Positions 44,760 through 48,148 of a stretch of DNA of 64,000 nucleotides are shown here, in pieces (the first letter of the stretch is position 1; every line of letters starts with the position of its first letter). The position numbers and the translations under genes are program-made. A model generated the notes under the pieces. That model did no database searches. It was not told the DNA's origin and was given only the letters and a program-made list of their open reading frames with translations. Source of the stretch: Hyphomonas sp. (GTDB taxonomy: Bacteria > Pseudomonadota > Alphaproteobacteria > Caulobacterales > Hyphomonadaceae); NCBI RefSeq assembly GCF_016125515.1, contig NZ_WGLO01000018.1:1-64000 (forward strand). Reading direction: 5' to 3'.

Positions 44760-45320
44760 ATGAGCTTGCTGGCATTTCTCGCAGAAACCGCTGCCCACGG
44801 CGGCGAGCATGGCGAAGGCGTGAAAGCGCCCTTCCCAGCGTTCGATCCGACGTGGTTTGCGTCGCAGCTGTTCTGGCTCGCAATCTTCTTCCTGGGGCTC
44901 TACTTCGCCCTGGCGCGCTTCGTCCTGCCGAAGCTCAGCGACACGCTGGAGAAACGCGCCAACCGGATCGCTGCCGATCTCGACGAAGCCGCCCGGTTGA
45001 ACAACCAGTCGGTCGAAGCGCAGAAGGCTCTCGAACTCCGCCTCGCCCAGGCCCGTGCGAAAGCCCGCGAAACCGGCGACAAGGCGCGTGAGAAAACCGA
45101 AGCGGAACTCGCAACGGAAACCGCACGCGTCGATGCCGATCTCGCCCGCAAGCTTGAAACTGCTGAAGCCCGCATCTCCAAGCTGCGCGCCGATGCGATG
45201 AAGAATGTCGAGCAGATCGCTGTCGATACGGCCGAAGCGATGACCGCCCGGCTCGGCGTCAAGGCATCGAAGGCCGACGTCAAGAAAGCCGTCGCGGCAG
45301 CCTTGGAGAAACGCGGATGA
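44760..45320 (+). CDS. atpX: ATP synthase Fo subunit b'
   Basis: A 186-residue peripheral-stalk subunit. A membrane helix (residues 32-52, FASQLFWLAIFFLGLYFAL) is followed by a long charged coiled coil (DTLEKRANRIAADLDEAA and onward). This is the b'-type copy found in alphaproteobacteria and chloroplasts alongside b. It overlaps atpF by 4 bp (ATGA). Confidence 0.94.
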   Translation: MSLLAFLAETAAHGGEHGEGVKAPFPAFDPTWFASQLFWLAIFFLGLYFALARFVLPKLSDTLEKRANRIAADLDEAARLNNQSVEAQKALELRLAQARAKARETGDKAREKTEAELATETARVDADLARKLETAEARISKLRADAMKNVEQIAVDTAEAMTARLGVKASKADVKKAVAAALEKRG

Positions 45321-45883
45321 CCCTGCGCACGCTCACATCGGCCTTCGCGGCACTCGTCCTCGCGCCTACTGCATTGGCCGCCGAAGGCCAGGACACGCTG
45401 CTGACCCCGTTCACCGACACCGTCACGCACCTCGTGATGATCGGTATCGTGATTTTCTTCGTGATCGTTTGGCGCGCCGGTGCGTTCAAGGCGATCCTTG
45501 GCGGCCTCGACACCCGCGCCGAAGGGATCAAGAAGGAACTGGAAGAAGCGGCCAACCTGCGTGAGCAGGCCGCTGAAGCGCTGGCCCTGGCCGAGCGGCG
45601 TCAGCAGGACGCCGACAAGGAAGCCGAAGCCATCATCGAACAGGCGAAACGCGACGCCAAGACGATGCTGGAAGAGGCCAAGAAAGACCTTACGGACAAG
45701 ATCGCCCGCCGCGAAGCCCAGGCTGTGGCGCGCATCGCCCGCGCTGAAGCCGAAGCCGCTGAAGAAGTCCGCCGCGCCGCTGCGGACGCGGCGACCGAAG
45801 CAGCCCGCCGCGTGATGGCGGACCAGACCGGCGTCGACCAGTTCGAAGCGGCCGCGCGCGAGATCGAAAAAGCGCTAAGCTGA
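45317..45883 (+). CDS. atpF: ATP synthase Fo subunit b
   Basis: A 188-residue second peripheral-stalk subunit. A possible signal-like N-terminus (TLRTLTSAFAALVLAPTALA) precedes the membrane helix LVMIGIVIFFVIVWRAGAF. A long Ala/Glu/Lys-rich coiled coil follows, ending in a dimerisation region (AEAAEEVRRAAADAATEAA). It is the last Fo gene and is followed by a strong terminator. The extra hydrophobic stretch at the N-terminus is longer than in many b subunits. Confidence 0.94.
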   Translation: MTLRTLTSAFAALVLAPTALAAEGQDTLLTPFTDTVTHLVMIGIVIFFVIVWRAGAFKAILGGLDTRAEGIKKELEEAANLREQAAEALALAERRQQDADKEAEAIIEQAKRDAKTMLEEAKKDLTDKIARREAQAVARIARAEAEAAEEVRRAAADAATEAARRVMADQTGVDQFEAAAREIEKALS

Positions 45884-45958: not shown

Positions 45959-46894
45959 TCAGGAGGGGTCCTCAGCCGTGTCGTCGACGATCTGCGGCTT
46001 GGTGTCATCGATGATCGGATCCGGCTCCAGCACCGTCAGCAGCGCGCGTGGCACGGTTCCAGCCGGACAGGTCGACAACTGCGAATTGGCGATCGCCACA
46101 CTGGACACATTCGGCCGGGCCGCCGGTTGGGTGCGGAACACCCAGGCGAGGAACAACATTGCACCGATCGCGAGGCTCACGGCTGCCATGGTGCCGAACC
46201 CGAGCGCCTCTTCAACGAGGTTGGCGGACGCGACAGCGCCTTCGGACGCGAGCGGGCTCGCGCCATTCTTGCGGCCATTGCCGGGCGCGGCCGGCGGCGG
46301 TCCGGAATTGCCGCGCAGCGAGGCGGCGGCCAGCGCAGCCGCGCCGATGGCTTCGCGCGCCGGTGCCGGCTTGATGCCGAGATCCTTCTCGCGTTTTTTC
46401 TTCGCATCGAGGGCCAGCGGGTCATCCGGGTGGGCGGCCAACCAATCGATCCGCTCGTCCTCATCCTGCGCGCCATAGCCCAGCCAAACCCGCAGGTCGG
46501 TCCGGCCCTGGCGGCGGCCAAGCTCATCGACCATGTCCAGGAAGCCCGGCGGCGTCTTGCGGGACGTCATGCCCTCCAGCGCAAAGCGTTTGTGCTGGCG
46601 GAACGGCTCATACGGGATCGCCTTGTCGAGCGCGGCCTCCACCAGCGCATCGCCGCGCGAATGCCCGACAGCCGAAGCCGCGCGCACCCAGTCGCTCTTC
46701 ACGGCATTTGCCGACCAGAGCACCAGCATCACCTGCGAATTCATCGCATCGCGCGCATCCTTGGCGTCGAAGATCTCGTCTTCCTGCTTCTGGTCGAACC
46801 AGACGCGGAACTTGAGCGACCGCAACCGCCGCGCGACCAGCTTCGCGGTGTCCCGATCCTCAAGGGCGGAGACGAGGAAGATGTCGTAACTCAT
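45959..46894 (-). CDS. TIR-domain protein with a C-terminal membrane anchor (lacks usual catalytic Glu)
   Basis: A 311-residue protein. Residues 1-95 look like a bacterial TIR domain (MSYDIFLVSALEDRDTAKLV, VWFDQKQEDE, VMLVLWSANAVKSDWVRAA). A helical charged linker and a Pro/Gly/Ala-rich segment follow, then a hydrophobic helix at about 233-253 (GFGTMAAVSLAIGAMLFLAW) and a short periplasmic tail. In NAD-cleaving TIR domains the catalytic Glu sits four residues after the conserved Trp (WVRAE type). Here that position, after W69, is Ala73, so NADase activity is doubtful. The start at 46894 is chosen because the TIR fold begins there; the frame to 46963 is unsupported. Confidence 0.82.
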   Translation of the reverse strand: MSYDIFLVSALEDRDTAKLVARRLRSLKFRVWFDQKQEDEIFDAKDARDAMNSQVMLVLWSANAVKSDWVRAASAVGHSRGDALVEAALDKAIPYEPFRQHKRFALEGMTSRKTPPGFLDMVDELGRRQGRTDLRVWLGYGAQDEDERIDWLAAHPDDPLALDAKKKREKDLGIKPAPAREAIGAAALAAASLRGNSGPPPAAPGNGRKNGASPLASEGAVASANLVEEALGFGTMAAVSLAIGAMLFLAWVFRTQPAARPNVSSVAIANSQLSTCPAGTVPRALLTVLEPDPIIDDTKPQIVDDTAEDPS

Positions 46895-47050
46895 GGGCGC
46901 GTGTACCCTTCTGATACGGTTAACCACGGCAGAATACCCCCGCGGTCTGGCCAGGCCAGCCATTTAAGCTGCCAAGCGATTTTTGTGCCTGTTTTTGCAC
47001 TGAGAAAGCGGGTAAGGCGCCGGTTCAGCCAATCCGGAGGTCAAGGCGCC

Positions 47051-48148
<1,098 letters not shown>

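Follow-up and report, generated by a model that had tools for sequence, protein, structure and literature searches.

Most discussion of bacterial TIR domains treats them as defence enzymes that cut NAD or as host-directed effectors. A gene of Hyphomonas sp. raises the question of what a TIR protein does when it is anchored in the membrane and has no catalytic glutamate. The gene encodes a protein of 311 amino acids and lies at positions 45959-46894, on the minus strand, of the window, which is the whole analysed stretch of 64,000 nucleotides from contig NZ_WGLO01000018.1 (assembly GCF_016125515.1; family Hyphomonadaceae, order Caulobacterales). A sequence-only reading had described the product as a membrane-tethered TIR protein without the usual glutamate, and had proposed a signalling or decoy protein rather than a killer enzyme. 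The observation is confirmed: the membrane tether and the lack of the canonical NADase glutamate hold throughout the ortholog family, which is under strong purifying selection. The interpretation as a whole is partly supported, as set out below.

The gene start at 46894 is supported, because methionine occupies the start column in all 72 orthologs that have letters there. A further in-frame ATG is located upstream at 46963, and the plus strand over 45959-46894 is likewise open from end to end. The gene is divergent from a gene at 47051-48148 (plus strand) which we take, from its sequence, to be ychF. The region between the two starts comprises 156 bases (46895-47050). Both starts lie in this one region, so that co-regulation is possible. 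A promoter scan of 46895-47050 gave no sigma-70-like site, and a terminator scan gave one candidate, at chance level. The neighbour on the other side of the TIR gene (45317-45883, plus strand) is presumably atpF'.

A place was counted as an ortholog up to E 3.5e-32, and by this count all 42 genomes of the genus and 72 of the 105 of the family have one. The gene adjoins ychF, divergently and on the opposite strand, in 72 of 73 loci; the one locus that deviates is a gene fragment, on a contig of 3.9 kb. With this fixed neighbour and its presence throughout the genus, the location of the gene is not accessory or island-like. The far side, which the fetched sequences cover for some 1.5-3 kb, carries atp genes (atpF') in 23 of the 42 genus loci; inspection of 14 loci by eye showed rplY-pth in several from other genera and yet other genes elsewhere. 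A functional link to ATP synthase is not supported, since atpF' is present in just these 23 genus loci and ychF alone is constant. No ortholog was found in 33 of the 105 family genomes, some of them incomplete, so the gene is not essential to the way of life of the family. A search for ychF in 21 of these genomes gave no match in two; at the ychF flanks of the other 19 no diverged copy was detected, with the contig ending 426 bases (L123) and about 607 bases (L124) beyond the ychF start in two of them. No copy was found at 21 further ychF loci from other families of the order. In a class sample of 385 genomes there was no ortholog outside the order at 1e-20, and only two genus members matched. 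An order sample of 299 genomes added one recognised ortholog, L128, which belongs to a different family; 14 of the weaker matches that this sample gave outside Hyphomonadaceae were read. L128 is taken as a probable distant ortholog because it also diverges from ychF. Its gene is located at L128:815-2416 (minus strand), and the next match among 60 genomes of its family is far weaker (E 2.7e-23).

The N-terminal TIR domain named in the sequence-only reading was recovered by Pfam, where TIR_2 (PF13676) matches residues 5-75 with 33.1 bits (cut-off 28, E 9e-8) and is the sole match of the protein. When six proteins of the ortholog family were compared with PF13676, L054 and L076 scored above the cut-off, and L128 (18.8), L061 (18.1), L074 (22.3) and L081 (19.6) below it. 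AlphaFold models of the full-length protein (mean pLDDT 56) and of residues 1-175 (mean pLDDT 72) both have alternating strands and helices, and both are of low confidence near residues 37-45, the BB-loop region, and 74-100. The TIR domain is placed at residues 1-132 (46499-46894, minus strand). The best Foldseek matches of the 1-175 model were AbTir (8g83, E 0.012) and BtTir (7uxr, E 0.027), both weak; neither model gave a Foldseek match with E < 0.001. The first ten VIA-align matches of the 1-175 model were all TIR proteins, from SPARTA, Cat1 and TIR-STING, which align over 108-116 residues at Z 6.7-7.7 (best match Z 7.7 over 109 residues); Z is thus < 8, and other folds are close behind. 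For the full-length model, tRNA-synthetase-type domains were ranked first and AbTir 15th; this ranking is taken to reflect, in all likelihood, a common alternating strand-helix layout. TIR entries missing from the lists of fold matches carry no evidential weight. A Z below 8 alone is no proof of the flavodoxin-like TIR fold, but the Pfam score and the fold matches together suffice to identify the product as a TIR protein. Direct alignment to solved TIR structures ends at V70/R71, short of position 73.

The glutamate of the WxxxE motif is described as required for NADase activity in most bacterial TIRs (PMC11374754, available part). The accessible part of a survey places it in > 70% of all TIRs and in < 10% of the TIRs of MyD88, TIRAP and endosomal TLRs, and adds that its presence does not exactly track activity (PMC7075850). 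In the translated Hyphomonas protein the residue four after W69 is alanine (W69-V-R-A-A73; 46676-46690, minus strand), as had been read. Across 73 ortholog loci, from 72 genomes of which one, a MAG, has a second piece, the A73 column holds Ala in 49, Ile in 13, Met in 8 and Leu in 3, and is never acidic. The original claim was an alignment by eye, and it holds against a control of 34 other TIR proteins aligned with the family, 20 of them picked from other searches and 14 being the best matches of the order search: 33 carry Glu in this column. The only one without it is L128. A tree of 35 of the 72 family rows and all 34 comparison proteins, computed with the Glu column removed, joins the family and L128 in one clade (support 100/97) and separates them from the 33 proteins that have Glu; according to a warning of the program, long branches meet at this split. 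A single loss of the glutamate would be the simplest history, and the tree fits it. The loss is a trait of the family.

The family is under strong purifying selection, and the TIR part is its most constrained region. The mean dN/dS (NG86, 19 close pairs) is 0.040 in the TIR part versus 0.080 overall; the values for the other parts are 0.060 in the helical module (18 pairs), 0.103 in the linker, 0.083 in the membrane helix and 0.131 in the tail. Twenty columns are invariant among 29 diverse family members. From its distribution, its fixed place and its dN/dS, the Glu-less TIR protein belongs to the core proteins of Hyphomonas and its relatives, and is neither a recent defence gene nor a decaying enzyme. 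Recent acquisition for defence is rejected by its presence at one fixed place in all genus genomes, and a decaying pseudogene or enzyme is rejected by dN/dS. PADLOC gave for this protein only PDC-S66 (E 0.0029 over 35 residues) and no confident match; among four more proteins of the family, L076 matched PDC-S66 as well (E 2e-4) and the other three matched no model.

Beyond the TIR domain the protein contains four further parts. The conserved helical module (residues 103-175; 46370-46588, minus strand) has helices modelled at pLDDT of about 78-95 and carries a W..xHPxDPL motif, which is partly present in several Glu-bearing relatives. It is followed by a variable, Ala/Pro-rich linker (residues 176-232; 46199-46369, minus strand), with pLDDT < 50 over residues 180-238. 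The protein has one C-terminal hydrophobic helix (residues 233-254; 46133-46198, minus strand), modelled as a helix over 234-254. This bears out the membrane helix of the sequence-only reading: a hydrophobic 19-residue stretch is present in the C-terminal part of 70 of 70 orthologs of at least 250 amino acids and in residues 1-168 of none of them, three shorter fragment orthologs being left out of the count. The tail past the helix (residues 255-311; 45962-46132, minus strand) contains CPAGTVP (276-282) and acidic DDT motifs, and its Cys-Pro-x-Gly (C276, P277, G279) is invariant in all 71 orthologs with letters there. L128 has two PG_binding_1 stretches past its membrane helix (E 4.5e-27) and, by eye, no Cys-Pro motif in its tail; the Hyphomonas protein is shorter and is without this peptidoglycan-binding part. 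The statement that there is no partner domain needs amendment for the conserved helical module, the Cys-Pro-x-Gly tail and the PG_binding_1 of L128. Peptidoglycan is located outside the inner membrane, and from this we infer that the TIR domain is cytoplasmic and the tail on the outer side.

By analogy with the Glu-less TIRs of MyD88, TIRAP and endosomal TLRs, the protein is probably a non-enzymatic, envelope-anchored scaffold or adaptor, and its Glu-less TIR domain would not be expected to cleave NAD. The signalling role that had been proposed fits best in this form. A cytoplasmic TIR domain without the catalytic glutamate would be followed by the helical module and, after a flexible linker, by the single membrane helix and the conserved outer tail. 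The tail, whose counterpart in L128 contains the peptidoglycan-binding domains, may hold or sense the envelope, and the inner TIR domain may recruit partners through TIR-TIR or other contacts. One such partner, as a speculation, could be the TIR-ParA ATPase of the same cells. Among the points against a scaffold, W69, beside the catalytic site, is kept, which a pure scaffold need not do, and the family-specific acids D46 and E96 could serve a changed reaction.

Compared with known systems, the protein resembles the bacterial TIR NADases (AbTir, BtTir and TcpC; TIR_2) in its TIR_2 score above the cut-off, the retained Trp of WxxxE and the best, albeit weak, Foldseek matches of residues 1-175. 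It differs from them by the lack of Glu in 73 of 73 loci, by the membrane helix and outer tail, and by the position of its gene in the core genome. The TIR of plant RRS1, which we take to be a Glu-less partner TIR paired with RPS4, is among the fold matches (4c6s, Z 6.5, 112 residues, rmsd 3.7, 7% identity), but RRS1 is a many-domain plant NLR and the likeness may be that of the TIR fold alone. The Glu-bearing TIRs of the order have the TIR domain in common with the protein, and several also have the same helical module. By eye, several carry extensive C-terminal parts and stretches that resemble membrane segments; unlike the family, the 33 that were aligned carry Glu and their number varies from genome to genome. 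To the eye, the C-terminal parts of four of them (L088, L091, L094 and L098), which differ greatly from one another, resemble WD40 propellers, an MFS-type transporter and OmpA/Sel1-like repeats. The scaffold TIRs of animals (MyD88, TIRAP/MAL and endosomal TLRs) are similar in that Glu is rare there too, its lack being common but not universal among scaffold TIRs according to the available part of the survey (PMC7075850). Glu-less TIRs such as MyD88 and TIRAP are described as scaffolds, and assemblies of scaffold TIRs are reviewed, in PMC8635717 as far as its text was available. TLRs are, moreover, membrane proteins with the TIR inside, and the action proposed here is likewise non-enzymatic. 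In contrast to them, the Hyphomonas protein is bacterial and encoded beside ychF, and no death domain or leucine-rich repeats were seen in it.

A special case of the scaffold, contained within its probability and by itself unlikely, is that the protein anchors TIR-ParA, and that TIR-TIR recruitment fixes the place of some component at the cell pole or envelope of these budding bacteria. TIR-ParA is a fusion of about 435 amino acids that combines TIR_2 and a MinD/ParA-type domain; in the source genome (G000) it is encoded at C18:29593-30882 (minus strand), and it is also seen in L193 and L195:1059-2363 (minus strand). At E 1e-50 it was detected in 41 of the 42 genomes of the genus and in 65 of the 105 of the family. 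Among the latter, 61 have both proteins and 29 have neither. The source genome has 11 PF13676 matches, and 16 of the 42 genus genomes have only one or two. Fifteen of these 16 were selected for having few TIRs; in 14 of them the TIR_2 matches (E up to 0.1) are exactly the membrane TIR and TIR-ParA, and the remaining one adds a weak match (E 0.011). Against this anchor, 11 family genomes have the membrane TIR only (one of them, G083, with a piece of TIR-ParA) and four have TIR-ParA only, and six complete genomes keep the membrane TIR with no TIR-ParA found at E 1e-50. Both traits form clusters on the ychF tree, and shared ancestry may explain the overlap. G241 is coded in this tree as without TIR-ParA, and a later check of that genome found matches to the ATPase part only. 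The two genes are on different contigs in the source genome, and the Glu-bearing TIRs of other genomes are alternative possible partners. An obligate pair is unlikely; an optional pair is possible.

The rival that comes next is a rebuilt enzyme, in which a reorganised site still acts on a nucleotide and the glutamate is replaced by D46 in helix B (46757-46759, minus strand) or by D90 or E96 at the end of strand D. This is unlikely, although several columns speak for it. All 72 orthologs have D/E at position 46 and L128 has Asp, versus no acid in the 33 Glu-bearing relatives; the E96 column is acidic in 90% of orthologs and Glu in L128, again versus 0 of 33. D90 is acidic in 72 of 72 orthologs, though 45% of the relatives are likewise acidic there. 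W69 is retained in 69 of 72 orthologs, and the TIR part is the most constrained. We know of no TIR enzyme that uses the D46, D90 or E96 positions, which counts against such an enzyme. Further against it, Ile, Met or Leu takes the place of Glu in part of the family and fills the site, and the position of D34, where strand B ends, holds Asn in 20 of the 72 family members versus Asp in all 34 comparison proteins. Helix B contributes to the ligand pocket of SARM1 (PMC7075850, available part), which would suit D46. Whether another acid fills the site had been raised together with the original claim: the alignment offers D46 as a candidate, and the models, of low confidence at 37-45 and 74-100, leave the placing of the A73 site indistinct.

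The scaffold can also be extended beyond an anchor. A non-catalytic membrane TIR that faces the peptidoglycan and the TIR-ParA ATPase would then form a housekeeping TIR-TIR system, which ties the state of the envelope to a positioning ATPase without NAD cleavage or immunity and would be a bacterial counterpart of the TLR-adaptor principle of animals. We regard this extension as unlikely.

The role of a decoy or brake, in which the protein enters the assemblies that the cell's own Glu-bearing TIR enzymes form and stops them, or else lures phage factors, is very unlikely. Inactive enzyme versions have been proposed as dominant negatives or decoys in bacterial conflict systems (PMC7159879, as far as available), and Glu-bearing TIRs do occur in other genomes of the genus, including the source genome with its 11 TIR_2 matches. 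Yet the gene is kept in genomes with few TIRs: a decoy for Glu-bearing TIR_2 has no target in 14 of the 15, as the only other TIR_2 protein there is TIR-ParA, and PF01582 adds no match in any of the 15. Inspection by eye of six TIR-ParA sequences, of which five come from these 15 genomes, shows Asp at the place of Glu in all six, and Trp at the place of W69 in only one. The housekeeping neighbours and the PADLOC results point the same way. The decoy half of the earlier proposal is thus less likely for Glu-bearing TIR_2 of the own cell.

That the protein is a drifting remnant of a former TIR receptor which lost enzyme and sensor would agree with its being shorter than L128, without the peptidoglycan-binding part, and not found in some lineages, but is exceedingly improbable given the dN/dS of the TIR part, the presence in every genus genome and the invariant columns.

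TIRs without the catalytic glutamate are known; new is their occurrence as a core, envelope-anchored bacterial protein. A literature search gave no paper that joins Hyphomonas or Hyphomonadaceae with a TIR domain; publication elsewhere is possible. Nothing relevant was found on TIR pseudoenzymes, nor, among the matches listed, on TIR with ParA or MinD. A strongly selected, envelope-tied, Glu-less TIR of the core genome would be a natural test system for non-catalytic TIR scaffolding in bacteria, and could show whether TIR scaffolding is as old as TIR immunity. In strains with only two TIR_2 genes the question of a scaffold is directly testable by deletion. Three contigs titled Candidatus Sulfopaludibacter or Acidobacteria bacterium (L036, L037 and L039) carry orthologs of 69-77% identity in the same setting, and these titles are probably wrong.
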